This document shows, one piece after another, positions 19,626 through 23,672 of a DNA stretch of 27,818 bases. The notes beneath the pieces are model-generated. The model saw only the letters and a program-made list of their open reading frames with translations, did no database searches and was not told where the DNA came from. Source of the stretch: Zoopage sp. CT-All. Taxonomy: Eukaryota; Zoopagomycota; Zoopagomycetes; Zoopagales; Zoopagaceae. The stretch's first letter is position 1; the number at the start of each line of letters is the position of its first letter. The position numbers and the translations under genes were made by a program. The DNA is taken from NCBI GenBank assembly GCA_004114245.1, contig QZWS01000088.1:1-27818 (forward strand). The letters are read 5' to 3'.

Positions 19626-19871
19626 GGCTGTGGCAGTGTCGAAAATGCTTTCACGCGTCTGAGGCGAAGATGCGCCCAAAACAGAGTCTGGCAGCGCACA
19701 GTGCTGGAGCTCTTCCATTTGAATACATGGGAAATGGATTTGCATTGCTTCTCCATTTGAATACACACGCATGCCCCATCAGGCCATCAGATAACAGAAA
19801 AGTGTACAGCGGTGCCTGGACGGGCCTGCAATCCCCTCCCACTCACACCAACTTGTGCTCGCCGCCCCAAC
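19626..19871. promoter_or_regulatory. spacer upstream of smc6, with a 14-bp direct repeat
   Basis: This spacer separates divergent smc6 from the first secreted-protein unit. TCCATTTGAATACA occurs twice in direct orientation, at 19714-19727 and 19752-19765, spaced 38 bp apart. The duplicated block shared with the second unit begins at about 19769, just after the second repeat. The repeats could be regulatory for smc6 or scars of the rearrangement; sequence alone does not tell. Confidence 0.4.
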
Positions 19872-20063
19872 ATGGCCATCCAGAAGCAGGTCAAGCAGTT
19901 GAGGAAAGAATTGGCTGTGAGGCAGCGCACATGTGGCTTTTATCGCCTGTCCCTTGTCAAGAGTAGTCCGCTGCTGTCGTTTTTTTTGCACACCACCAAT
20001 CCGCTACATCCCATTTGCTGCGCCCATTCATCACGCAGCAACACTCTCAAAAATCCTCTATAG
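19872..20063 (+). other. upstream mini-ORF of unit A (conserved 5' part)
   Basis: An ATG opens 63 codons beginning MAIQKQVKQLRKELAVRQ and stops 4 nt before the main start codon. The first 18 codons are conserved in unit B as MVIQKQTKQLRKELVVRQ; after that the frames diverge and unit B stops at codon 23. The conserved part is a short amphipathic Lys/Leu/Gln helix followed by GTGAGG, which could be a splice donor. It may be a translated uORF, or a captured first exon of an unrelated gene (it faintly recalls the start of G-protein gamma subunits). Neither can be proved here. Confidence 0.45.
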
Positions 20064-20067
20064 AATC

Positions 20068-21144
20068 ATGAAGTCCCTGCTTCTTCTCGCTCTTGTTGCT
20101 CTTGCCGCCTTTACCCCTGATGCCCTTGCTTCACATGGCAAAACACTTGAGAAGATCAAAAGGGATCCCAATACTGCCCTCCCCTTTGAGCTTCGCCAAA
20201 CTTTGATGAGCTATCTTACTGAAAATGACCGGAGAAAATATGCCCAGGCCAGCTCTGCATCCTATAAAACTGTTATGCAACTCAACCACGGGTTTGTTTT
20301 CTATATGCTTCTGAGAGCGTTCGAGAAATACAAAATGAGTATTCCGGAGGACACAGTTTGGTCCATTGTCGCAGCAATGAAGTTTTTAGACTACAGGCAA
20401 ATTATTTCCCTTGGTCGCTTGATCAGTGAGATCGGTTTCGACAAGTTGCAAAGCGATTATAATTTGACAGCAAAGCTTGCAAGCCTTACAATATGTTCAC
20501 CAGATTCGAACGCTAGATGGAAAGGCATAGTGGTCACCACAGACCCGCATAGCCTCATTCAATTGGCGCGTGCCGCTGACGGTTTGGGGTTAACGCGCAT
20601 TGCTGAGCCACACGATATAATCACCGCACTTTTCCTGGCAAATACTGAGCAGTTAAGCAACGGCCTCAAAATTGATGAGAAGTGGATTAACGATGGCTCC
20701 CTGGCTTGGCTTGTGGAATCGCTTACTCACAGGAAACCAAGGCCACGTCCTGGCATTCGATTCTCTCGCGAAGATATATCTGCGATATTTGGTTCAATAA
20801 TCTACTCGATGATCAGTCCACAGGTGCTTGCTCGTAAATCCCCATTGACTCTGGATGTCTTCACTGCAATCATTGACTGGATGAAAGTAGTGTTGAATGC
20901 TATACGATCACTCTATGATCATAATTCAATTGAAGTGCCAATTATGTCTGAGTCGGGACGGGTTGTGGCCACTCCAATTCCATATGATATTACAGTGGGA
21001 GGGATCAAAAAATTACTTGTACTGCACCCAAGCATCATGGCACTGGTCGCTGGCTTGGTCAAGCTACTTAGTCGCACAGATAGCTACCAGCCTATACATG
21101 GCCTCGAGGACATCATCAAGTGGTCTGCGCGCATTGTAGGTTAG
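20068..21144 (+). CDS. secreted F-box-like protein, copy A (C-terminally shortened)
   Basis: An intronless gene of 358 aa. I do not recognise a named family. Residues 1-21 form a clear signal peptide (MKSLLLLALVALAAFTPDAL, cleavage near ALA|SHG). Residues 38-70, LPFELRQTLMSYL...ASSASYKTV, match the spacing of an F-box helix bundle (LPxEL...L..YL...D). The rest is mostly helical with few cysteines and no repeat I can see. It is about three-quarters identical to copy B by eye, but stops after ARIVG. A one-base difference (GGTTAG here, GGTATAG in B) creates a stop; the downstream DNA still resembles the last 24 codons of B. Codon usage is AT-richer than in the neighbours. An F-box is normally nucleo-cytosolic, so its presence behind a signal peptide is odd; divergent sequence could make the F-box match fortuitous. 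Confidence 0.85.
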   Translation: MKSLLLLALVALAAFTPDALASHGKTLEKIKRDPNTALPFELRQTLMSYLTENDRRKYAQASSASYKTVMQLNHGFVFYMLLRAFEKYKMSIPEDTVWSIVAAMKFLDYRQIISLGRLISEIGFDKLQSDYNLTAKLASLTICSPDSNARWKGIVVTTDPHSLIQLARAADGLGLTRIAEPHDIITALFLANTEQLSNGLKIDEKWINDGSLAWLVESLTHRKPRPRPGIRFSREDISAIFGSIIYSMISPQVLARKSPLTLDVFTAIIDWMKVVLNAIRSLYDHNSIEVPIMSESGRVVATPIPYDITVGGIKKLLVLHPSIMALVAGLVKLLSRTDSYQPIHGLEDIIKWSARIVG

Positions 21145-21207
21145 ATCCTGAGGATGCGTGGTGGATAGAGAGTTGGGAAAAGGTGTTGGGAGCTGAGCTT
21201 GCAATAA

Positions 21208-22220
21208 GTTGGGTTGACAGCTAAGAAATTTACTTCATTGGAATATCTTATGACTAAGTTGATCACCAACCAAGTTCAGGTATCTGAATTACAATATGCG
21301 GAATTTGCTAACTAGGACCAACACAAAGATTTTCTCAACATGGCATTCATTATTGTGGAGCAGATGGATGGCTAAAGAGCAGTCTCTTTTTTGTTTACAA
21401 CAATACATTAAGTTCCGCAGATCCTTGGTCCCCCCTCCACCTTCTCCGCCGCTCTCCTCTTCACCATCCCCTCAATTATAATTGGATCTCTAGTAGAGTA
21501 GTTTTATCTTTTCTTGTCTTGAGAATACAGGTTATTCCTACCTTCCTTGTGCTTGACTTCACTCTGTCTACCTCTGGGCCTCTCTGTGGTGTGGTGTGAT
21601 AGTGGATCTTATAGAATACAATGTAATTGAAAGTGACTATTAATTTCTACTGCTGCACCATACTCCCTGTAGAGGTGTAGGGATAGTGTGAGTACAATGC
21701 ATCTGCGGTGCAATGTGGGATGATTGTAGATTAATTACAAACTTTAACTACTAGCTAAATTACTACTACTTACTCCATACTCCCAACTAGGTAGGCATAA
21801 TACTACTACCACATACCACAGTTTTACATTAAGTTTCTATATGATTATCTCCTAACATCATTATGGATATTTGAATAATAACTACACCTTGTAGTAAATG
21901 GAAAGCATAAACAATATCCATTTGAGGACAAGATATATAGCCCAAGTGTGATATTAGCTGATAAGGAAACAAAATGCATTTGATAATATTCAAGCACTTA
22001 GATGGCAACCTTAGGACATTTTGTCCCTTTGGGAGGGTACTCAAATGTATAGGAGGATTATAGTTCAACTATAATCAGTCTGTATAGTACCCAATGTTAG
22101 GCCCATGTGGCAATTAAAACCCAATAAAACAGTTTTGGCCTTAATTTAGGCGCATTCGAAAAGTTAATATAGGCAAAAGTAGGCGTTTTATGGCAAAATG
22201 CTTAAAATAAGCACCCCTGT
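21208..22220. other. AT-rich spacer between the duplication units; no supported gene
   Basis: About 1 kb of AT-rich DNA holds no convincing gene. A pyrimidine tract at about 21429-21474 is followed by a segment to about 21600 that looks like leader or LTR sequence. There are also tri-nucleotide TAC/ACT runs (about 21760-21810) and short TAGGC-containing repeats (about 22145-22190). A minus-strand frame of 79 codons at 21829-22068 lacks any recognisable motif. The composition suggests decayed mobile-element DNA, but I found no terminal repeats or target-site duplication to prove it. Confidence 0.4.
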
Positions 22221-22323
22221 GCATGCCCCATCAGGCCATCAAATAACAGAAAAGTGTACAGCAGTGCCTGGATAGGCCTGCAATCCCCTCCCATTCACAC
22301 CAACTTGTGCTTGCTGCCCCAAC

Positions 22324-22392
22324 ATGGTCATCCAGAAGCAGACCAAGCAGCTGAGGAAAGAATTGGTTGTGAGGCAGCACAAGCCACTTTAG
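22324..22392 (+). other. upstream mini-ORF of unit B (22 codons)
   Basis: This is the counterpart of the mini-ORF in unit A. It begins MVIQKQTKQLRKELVVRQ and ends at a TAG after 22 codons, about 130 nt before the main start. Conservation with unit A stops where the reading frames diverge, next to a shared GTGAGG that could be a splice donor. It could act as a translational uORF or be a leftover exon. Confidence 0.4.
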
Positions 22393-22523
22393 TGCCTATC
22401 TCTTGCAAAACAGCAATCCGCTGCTTTTGTTTTTTTGCACTGCAGCACACCACCAATCCGCTACATCCCATTGCTGCGCCCATTCATCACGCAGCAACAC
22501 TCTCAAAAATCCTCGATAGAATC

Positions 22524-23672
22524 ATGAAGTCCCTGCTTCTTCTCGCTCTTGTTGCTCTTGCCGCCTTAACCCCTGATGCCCTTGCTTCGCATGGCAAAAC
22601 ACTTGAGAGGGCCAAAACCGATCCAAATACTACACTCCCCTTGGAGCTTCGCGATACTTTGATGAGCTATCTTACTGAAAATGACCGAAGTGAATATGCC
22701 CAGGCCAGCTCTGCATCCTATAAAACTGTTATGCAACTCAACCACAAGTACAGGTCGGTTTTCAATATGCTTCTGAGAACGTTCAAGGAATACAAAATGA
22801 GTATTCCGGATGACACAGGTTGGTCCATTGTCGCAGCAATGAAGCATTCAGGTGGCAAGCACGTTATCTCCCTTGGTCGCTTGATCAGTGAGATCGGTTT
22901 CAACAAGTTGCAAGACGATTACAATTTGATGGCAAATCTTGCAAGATTTGCAATAGACTCGCCAGATTTGGGCACTAAATCTAATGGCATAGTGGTCACC
23001 ACAGACCCGCATAGCCTCATTCGATTGGCGCGTGCCGCTGACGGTTTGGGGTTAACGCGCATTGCTGTGCCGTACGATATAATCACTGTGCTTTTCCTGA
23101 AAAATACTGCGCAGTTTAGCAACAGCCTCAAAATTGATGAGAAGTGGATTAACGACGGCTCCCTGGCTTGGTTTGTGGAATCGCTTACTCACGGGACACT
23201 AGGGTTACGTCCTGGCATTCGATTCTCACGCGAAGATATATCTGCAATGTTCTGTTCAATAATCTACTCGATGATCAATCCACAGGTGCTTGCTCGTAAA
23301 TCTCCATTGACTCTGGATGTCTTCACTGCAATCATTGACTGGATGAAAGCATTGCTGAATGCTATAGGATCGCTCTATGATTCTGAATCAGTTCAAGTAC
23401 CACGTATAGCTGTGTTTAAGCTGGGACGGGTTATGGCTGCTCCAGTGCCATATGATATTACAACGGGAGGGATCAAAAAGTTCCTTGCACTGCACTCAAG
23501 CACCATGGCGCTGGCCGCTGGTTTGGTCATGCTACTTGGTGACGCAGATAGTCGCCAGCCTATGTATGGCCTTGGGGACATTATCAAGTGGTCTACACGC
23601 ATTGTAGGTATAGATCCTGAGGATTGGTGGTGGGCTACCAATTGGCAAAAGGTGTTGGAGCTGAACTTGTAA
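22524..23672 (+). CDS. secreted F-box-like protein, copy B (full length)
   Basis: An intronless gene of 382 aa with the same architecture as copy A: signal peptide at residues 1-21, F-box-like segment LPLELRDTLMSYL at about 38-50, then a long helical domain. It continues past the truncation point of A with a Trp-rich tail (EDWWWATNWQKVLEL). It has two extra residues near position 75 (NHKYRSVF) and a few more in the loop before the conserved ITTGGIKKF. No catalytic motif or transmembrane helix beyond the signal is evident. A secreted or vacuolar protein from a lineage-specific family is the safest description. As the intact copy it is the better reference for the family. Confidence 0.88.
   Translation: MKSLLLLALVALAALTPDALASHGKTLERAKTDPNTTLPLELRDTLMSYLTENDRSEYAQASSASYKTVMQLNHKYRSVFNMLLRTFKEYKMSIPDDTGWSIVAAMKHSGGKHVISLGRLISEIGFNKLQDDYNLMANLARFAIDSPDLGTKSNGIVVTTDPHSLIRLARAADGLGLTRIAVPYDIITVLFLKNTAQFSNSLKIDEKWINDGSLAWFVESLTHGTLGLRPGIRFSREDISAMFCSIIYSMINPQVLARKSPLTLDVFTAIIDWMKALLNAIGSLYDSESVQVPRIAVFKLGRVMAAPVPYDITTGGIKKFLALHSSTMALAAGLVMLLGDADSRQPMYGLGDIIKWSTRIVGIDPEDWWWATNWQKVLELNL

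Follow-up and report, generated by a model that had tools for sequence, protein, structure and literature searches.

Copies A and B, two neighbouring genes, are by sequence comparison recent tandem duplicates within a large superfamily that is evolving fast, and a segment near their N-termini is, as judged by profile tests, homologous to the F-box. The F-box normally works inside cells, where it marks proteins for destruction. Since a predicted signal peptide precedes this divergent F-box, a normally intracellular part, the proteins may leave the cell and act within another organism. F-box homology, the signal-peptide-like N-terminus, family size and divergence were all computed. The explanation we prefer, tentative and a little short of an even call, is that A and B belong to an exported F-box superfamily that would dock on the Skp1 of another cell, with the C-terminus choosing the ubiquitination target.

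The gene pair and its surroundings

The two genes form a direct tandem in the analysed window, a stretch of 27,818 nucleotides (Table 1). Each is intronless, as the initial annotation had described, with one open frame from the first in-frame ATG. The proteins are 76% identical, and the duplicated unit extends about 300 nt into the 5′ flank (87% identity over 307 nt). The frame of copy A stops 20 codons short of that of copy B, with a small length difference at that place.

GC content is 46–47% within the genes and falls to about 40% in the spacer, versus 54% for the whole window. The low-GC gap that holds the pair has an SMC gene on one side and the gene for an L16-type ribosomal protein on the other, in agreement with the earlier description of a lower-GC island amid housekeeping genes. 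The left neighbour frame matches the SMC_N profile and is presumably SMC6; further left lie family matches to Spt5, GH20 hexosaminidase and Rpn1/Rpn2. Right-hand frames match the L16-type ribosomal protein, sulfate permease and YEATS families. An inner stretch of about 110–120 nt of the A–B spacer is repeated near two other family loci (L038 and L029).

Table 1. Coordinates of the gene pair and its parts within the window.
Feature	Position	Strand	Remarks
Copy A, 358-aa F-box-like protein with predicted signal peptide	20068..21144	+	single open frame
Copy B, 382-aa F-box-like protein with predicted signal peptide	22524..23672	+	single open frame
Copy A signal peptide, residues 1-22	20068..20133	+	by inspection; conserved family-wide
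Copy B signal peptide, residues 1-22	22524..22589	+	by inspection; conserved family-wide
Copy A F-box-like segment, about residues 36-76	20173..20295	+	profile comparison
Copy B F-box-like segment, about residues 36-76	22629..22751	+	profile comparison, PDB profile search
Copy B C-terminal region with conserved family core; no known domain	22752..23669	+	mostly helical, low-confidence model
Copy A 5′ flank, part of duplicated unit	19769..20067	+	
Copy B 5′ flank, part of duplicated unit	22221..22523	+	
Spacer between copies A and B	21145..22220	not assigned	about 40% GC

Several marker genes were examined in the genome. One DHC_N2 match to dynein heavy chain and five Zn-cluster matches were found. 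Chitin synthase gave seven match pieces on five contigs (best 900 bits); the family was also matched in 4/14 control genomes. The hexosaminidase is at most 51% identical to any of the 120 matches listed. An exact TTAGGG x4 was not found, nor was a 5.8S pattern at up to 2 mismatches; the genome is possibly incomplete, and these absences count little. The marker genes suggest a non-flagellated, probably early-diverging fungus. A mycoparasite similar to Piptocephalis was weighed as a candidate and found no support: none of the 120 hexosaminidase matches listed, many of which carry no species name, is labelled as Zoopagomycotina, and the family of A and B has no match in that collection.

A large and divergent superfamily

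The initial annotation had stated that many paralogues would support its proposal, and many were found elsewhere in the genome. The A/B family comprises about 39 merged loci, and two divergent groups comprise about 29 and about 16. From the divergent groups 4 of 45 loci were read; L060, L061 and L069 have a similar layout, as does L062 except that it lacks a clear signal peptide. The family alignment contains 26 rows, A and B plus 24 of 35 frames from fetched loci. Of the 11/35 frames left out, one was masked in part; the others were truncated at contig ends, incomplete, broken or lacking a clear start.

dN/dS is 1.0 for the A/B pair and 0.52–1.04 in other pairs with dS<1, which agrees with the duplicated, divergent and fast-evolving family first proposed. 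Copies A and B lack a C-terminal region of about 100 residues that 24/24 other aligned members have, and so may be specialised or decaying copies. The dN/dS near 1 and the shortened C-termini also fit relaxed constraint on A and B. No LRR or other Pfam domain was found in the C-terminal region of the members scanned. Copy B had no match in the PDB or in a very large protein collection. The family was also said to be lineage-specific; this is supported only to the extent that the candidates scored, from a single protein collection, included no relative.

Predicted N-terminal signal peptides

The N-termini of A and B read MKSLLLLALVALAA(F/L)TPDALAS and by inspection resemble a classical signal peptide, as had been claimed. 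A Met with a signal-like hydrophobic stretch stands at the start of both proteins and of 28/35 other family frames from fetched loci, where the start Met was chosen by hydropathy; the remaining 7/35 are cut, broken or without Met. The signal peptide is the best conserved of the compared blocks, and the remainder of the protein diverges. Mean identity is 62% in the signal peptide versus 24–36% elsewhere for the 21 main members, and 51% versus 21–30% for all 26.

F-box homology of the N-terminal segment

Downstream of the signal peptide, both copies carry the F-box-spaced segment LP(F/L)ELRxTLMSYLTENDR (residues 38–55) that the initial annotation had pointed out. The Pfam F-box models PF00646 and PF12937 were used for comparison. 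Copies A and B matched 0 Pfam families even at E≤10, so they lie below the curated F-box cut-offs, and for the two on their own the earlier statement that no family is recognised is right. A minority of paralogues do exceed the PF00646 cut-off. Scanned alone, L034 reached 22.3 bits against PF00646 (cut-off 20.5, E 1.2e-4, residues 39–67). PF00646 or PF12937 matched 6/26 aligned members at E≤1, always inside residues 32–86; most F-box scores were under the curated cut-off. Searching the whole genome with PF00646 gave 17 over-cut-off rows that included 7 superfamily genes, 3 of which exceeded the cut-off only with their neighbours in frame. The same search with PF12937 gave 13 over-cut-off rows and no superfamily gene. 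An NCBIfam scan produced only three hits, each in a single member.

Family profiles were then compared with a further 12 F-boxes from this genome, 11 of which exceed a Pfam F-box cut-off. The best N-terminal block scored 34.5 (probability 94.5) and the whole family alignment 33.9 (probability 70). Blocks outside the F-box-like segment scored ≤12.8, as did the shuffles; 0/200 column shuffles reached the real score for either of two blocks tested. A small HMM built from the 12 local F-boxes performed poorly on family members (best 3.6 bits) and is too weak for single members. Against 1256 open frames, a set enriched for F-box loci, the N-terminal profile had F-box segments as its top five rows outside the family (four genes). 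A profile search of the PDB returned 11 rows, of which the top two were FBXO4 (E 0.02) and others included CDC4 and FBXW8; 7/11 rows were not F-box proteins and no E-value was <0.01. The full-length family profile had no match in the PDB. Members are only 20–30% identical to one another, and despite this the family consensus retains the F-box pattern LPxEI...I...L...D...A.VS.....V. Several of these profile tests bear out the suggested relatedness to the F-box.

Alternative explanations

The F-box likeness could have arisen by chance, or by convergence, in an unrelated family of helical secreted proteins. Such a reading would account for the lack of a Pfam match in A and B alone and for the absence of superfamily rows over the PF12937 cut-off. 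It would also suit the low-confidence AlphaFold models, both made from window sequences only: mean pLDDT was 38 for the full-length A+B alignment and 50.5 for the N-terminal fragment, and Foldseek returned 0 matches with the latter. However, the profile-profile score lies far beyond those of shuffles and non-overlapping blocks, the F-box matches of the paralogues all fall at one place, and the best non-family rows of the N-terminal profile in the F-box-enriched frames are F-box segments. We regard chance or convergence as very improbable. A second possibility accepts the F-box and supposes that the hydrophobic N-terminus does not export. The proteins would then be internal, acting in ER-associated quality control, the vacuole or self/non-self recognition, and expanded as F-box families often are. 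The available part of a report on Choanephora describes an orphan F-box family of 31 members and states no secretion there (PMC5238444), and L062 has no in-frame Met ahead of its hydrophobic stretch. Against this, the N-terminus looks typical of a signal peptide and is the best conserved of the compared blocks, and a KDEL/HDEL-like terminal tetrapeptide occurs in 0/26 aligned members (last six residues examined). Internal proteins seem improbable.

A further reading keeps both the F-box ancestry and the secretion. Skp1 binding would have been lost, and the segment would now be a helical structural cap in extracellular or cell-surface proteins, which might take part in adhesion or contact with non-self, for instance. 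The F-box block has the lowest mean identity of the compared blocks (24%, versus 25–36% in other mature blocks), 20/26 aligned members have no match at E≤1 to the Pfam F-box models, and an F-box that is secreted but has no way into a cell would meet no Skp1. Yet the F-box pattern is still visible in the consensus of so divergent a family, and one member alone, L034, still exceeds the Pfam cut-off. Cysteines are also few (1–7 per mature protein), which is unusual for proteins that remain extracellular. A structural cap is unlikely in our view, yet the likeliest of these alternatives.

For the preferred explanation, export to another cell, we infer real secretion, entry into that cell, Skp1 binding and substrate recruitment. 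The signal peptide would send the protein out of the fungal cell. The F-box, which follows the signal peptide closely in a protein poor in cysteine, would dock on Skp1 of the other cell, and the long C-terminal part would select a protein for ubiquitination by that cell's SCF ligase. Counting against this explanation are the lack of Pfam matches in A and B, the mostly sub-cut-off F-box scores of the other members, the non-F-box rows in the PDB search and the low confidence of the structure models.

Comparison with known exported F-box proteins

Exported F-box proteins are already known from bacteria and a gall midge. The SSGP-71 family is very large and is secreted by a signal peptide. In the sections available, these effectors of the Hessian fly, Mayetiola destructor, are described as interacting with host Skp proteins; the family is eukaryotic, and in its members a target-binding part follows the N-terminal F-box (PMC4617103). 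The likeness of the present superfamily to them is one of architecture, with a putative target-binding part. A signal peptide also stands ahead of the F-box, by inspection or hydropathy, in A, B and 28/35 other frames, and the family is likewise large and rapidly diversifying (39, 29 and 16 loci). In contrast to the insect proteins with their LRR C-terminus, the fungal proteins have a C-terminal region without LRR or Pfam domain.

Legionella AnkB carries an ankyrin partner domain. It is, as far as the available source text goes, an exported F-box protein acting with the host SCF system. The same is described, in the accessible parts of the sources, for the GALA/RipG type III effectors of Ralstonia solanacearum and for VirF of Agrobacterium (PMC4617103, PMC4312480). 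All of these depend on bacterial injection systems, whereas the predicted signal peptide here indicates the ordinary secretory route. The partner domain of RipG is an LRR, which is absent from the family members scanned.

By profile comparison, the remaining F-box proteins of this genome share the domain with the A/B family; in contrast to that family, no signal peptide was seen ahead of the F-box in the frames inspected, which covered the over-cut-off rows except C405 at its hit. Some of them presumably carry WD40, LRR or JmjC parts. From the mycorrhizal fungus Rhizophagus clarus, the available text describes NLS_30765, an effector candidate with the F-box-like domain PF12937 (PMC4746824). 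That protein is one isolated candidate and matches Pfam clearly, whereas the present proteins form a superfamily with divergent F-boxes. The literature search, in the portions of the sources available, yielded one single fungal F-box effector candidate and no expanded secreted F-box family from a fungus.

We raise as a possibility, on balance doubtful, that a probably early-diverging fungus carries an F-box arsenal of up to about 84 loci that plugs into another organism's SCF ubiquitin ligases. A new target-selecting domain would replace the LRR or WD40, and the superfamily would be an independently evolved fungal counterpart of SSGP-71. If so, a fungus has evolved large-scale hijacking of SCF ligases in another cell, using a substrate-binding part matched by no library scanned here. 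A Skp1 pulldown would then provide a direct handle on the means by which a fungus that has been little studied controls its partners.

Locus and tandem pair

The window is the whole of contig C336 (27,818 bases), in a genome of 8.62 Mb in 419 contigs. The tandem pair described in the initial annotation, copies A and B, is real. The two proteins are 76% identical, and the duplicated unit begins in the 5′ flank, where the flanks are 87% identical across 307 nt. The low-GC island among housekeeping genes was likewise borne out: GC is 46–47% in the genes and ∼40% in the A–B gap versus 54% in the window, and the neighboring frames match SMC_N (which we take to be SMC6), Spt5, GH20 hexosaminidase and Rpn1/Rpn2 on the left side and an L16-type ribosomal protein, sulfate permease and YEATS on the right.

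A short frame starting MxIQKQxKQLRKEL occurs in both 5′ flanks, out of frame with gene A; it could be a leader, or a piece of a captured gene. A repeat of ∼110–120 nt, 87–93% identical, lies near three family loci and is perhaps a mobile element remnant.

Features of the tandem pair and associated repeats (L038 and L029 are fetched loci of the same genome)
Feature	Position	Remark
Copy A	20068–21144	direct tandem duplicate with copy B
Copy B	22524–23672	direct tandem duplicate with copy A
Short frame, first 5′ flank	19872–19928	
Short frame, second 5′ flank	22324–22380	
Repeat, window	21353–21474	
Repeat, L038	3260–3370	
Repeat, L029	2193–2314	

Family size and layout

Further copies were sought in the same genome. 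Copy B identified 38 places at E≤0.001 and a second query added two, giving a main family of 39 merged loci on 35 contigs, larger than first reported. Apart from A and B, 24 members were aligned; they are 419–617 aa long and comprise a signal peptide, a linker and an F-box-like segment, followed by a region containing a conserved core and by a C-terminal part not present in A and B. On 17/33 contigs matched by copy B the family match is <2 kb from the contig end, and some contigs start within a family gene; either the assembly breaks at these repeats or the position is subtelomeric.

A genome search with Pfam F-box PF00646 added four divergent proteins (L060, L061, L062 and L069), in which the F-box match follows an N-terminal hydrophobic stretch; that of L062 has no preceding in-frame Met. 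L060 and L062 have the family core outside the F-box in common, and L061 and L069 are weakly related to the family. L061 and L060 used as queries generated 29 and 16 further merged loci, respectively, with signal peptide and F-box read in 4/45 (the four proteins named). Several members of the L061 group (C252, C332, C338, C386) have stop codons within the match, which points to birth-and-death evolution.

Probable export signal

Of 35 family frames taken from the fetched loci, 28 open with a Met, chosen by hydropathy, and a hydrophobic core resembling that of a signal peptide, and A and B do likewise; the remaining seven are cut, broken or without Met. The 26 aligned rows were selected for a clear start. 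Mature proteins contain 1–7 cysteines. The family proteins are very probably secreted.

Probable homology to the F-box

Taken singly, the pair belongs to no recognized family, as first stated: neither A nor B matched Pfam at E≤10. Copy B had no match among PDB sequences or among 7997 scored candidates from a collection of 5.8 billion proteins, and the 26-row alignment had no hit there at E≤1 either (7997 candidates scored). A minority of paralogues did match a Pfam F-box. Single-protein scans found F-box or F-box-like at E≤1 in 6/26 aligned members (20/26 lacked such a match), 1/5 partial pieces and 4/4 divergent proteins, always coinciding with the F-box-like segment; one protein scanned singly, L034, passed the curated cut-off. 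Genome-wide, 17 rows exceeded the PF00646 cut-off, seven of them superfamily genes (three only with neighbors in frame), and 13 exceeded that of PF12937, none a superfamily gene.

Profile-profile comparison used 12 other F-boxes of the same genome, 11 of them above a Pfam F-box cut-off. The best N-terminal family block scored 34.5 (probability 94.5) and the whole family alignment 33.9 (probability 70). Just seven of 54 sliding blocks scored >12.8, all overlapping the F-box-like segment, and in each of the two blocks subjected to column shuffling 0/200 shuffles came up to the real score. In a PDB search with the N-terminal profile the top 2/11 rows were FBXO4 (E 0.02); CDC4 (E 0.34) and FBXW8 (E 1.1) also appeared, and the other seven were unrelated proteins. 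When 1256 open frames, a set enriched for F-box loci, were ranked by this profile, F-box segments from four genes took the five highest places outside the family. A simple HMM built from the 12 local F-boxes scored family members weakly. Two AlphaFold runs with window sequences only gave low confidence. An N-terminal fragment was modeled with helices at residues 18–26, 30–37 and 44–50, an arrangement that an F-box could have, although a pLDDT of ∼50 gives it little weight; Foldseek with the fragment model returned no matches. The F-box-like N-terminus noted initially holds, and the segment is very probably homologous to the F-box.

Divergence and selection

Among 21 main members mean identity is 62% in the signal peptide, 24% in the F-box block and 25–36% in the remaining blocks; over all 26 rows it is 51% in the signal peptide versus 21–30% elsewhere. 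In the tree A and B are sisters on a long branch, the C282 pair are sisters, and the C299 pair groups with C268. For A and B dN is 0.137 and dS 0.139 (dN/dS 1.0); other pairs with dS<1 gave 0.52–1.04. Because neutral substitutions would leave A and B stop-free with a chance of only 0.026 in a crude simulation, some coding constraint is suggested.

Source organism

One dynein heavy chain match, seven chitin synthase pieces on five contigs (a family that also matches in 4/14 control genomes), few Zn-cluster proteins and distant hexosaminidase relatives together suggest a fungus that lacks flagella and probably diverged early. The best named relative of the GH20 hexosaminidase L048 (C352) is from the amoeba Planoprotostelium fungivorum (44%), followed by early-diverging fungi; gene transfer, or contamination in the amoeba record, is possible.

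Reported F-box families and proposed mechanism

Earlier papers describe an effector candidate with an F-box from Rhizophagus clarus (PMC4746824), an orphan F-box family of 31 members in Choanephora, for which secretion is not stated (PMC5238444), and fungal proteins that have an F-box-resembling LPxE motif but no predicted signal for secretion (PMC3914424). For a nematode-trapping fungus, one table row lists infection-regulated F-box genes, again with no statement on secretion (PMC3828140). A 2014 review, in the part consulted, describes F-box effectors only under bacteria (PMC4312480). A search of openly accessible journal papers turned up none that describes an expanded family of secreted F-box proteins in a fungus.

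The established role of F-boxes is Skp1 binding. The F-box-like segment would bind Skp1, and target selection would fall to the C-terminal region. Since the protein is apparently exported, its partner would be the Skp1 of another cell. Homology, layout, family and divergence come out of the sequence analysis itself, and real export, entry, Skp1 binding and target recruitment are steps that we infer. The same pattern is proposed for the F-box effectors SSGP-71 and RipG7 in PMC4617103. That this family acts as such effectors is a tentative reading, somewhat short of probable.
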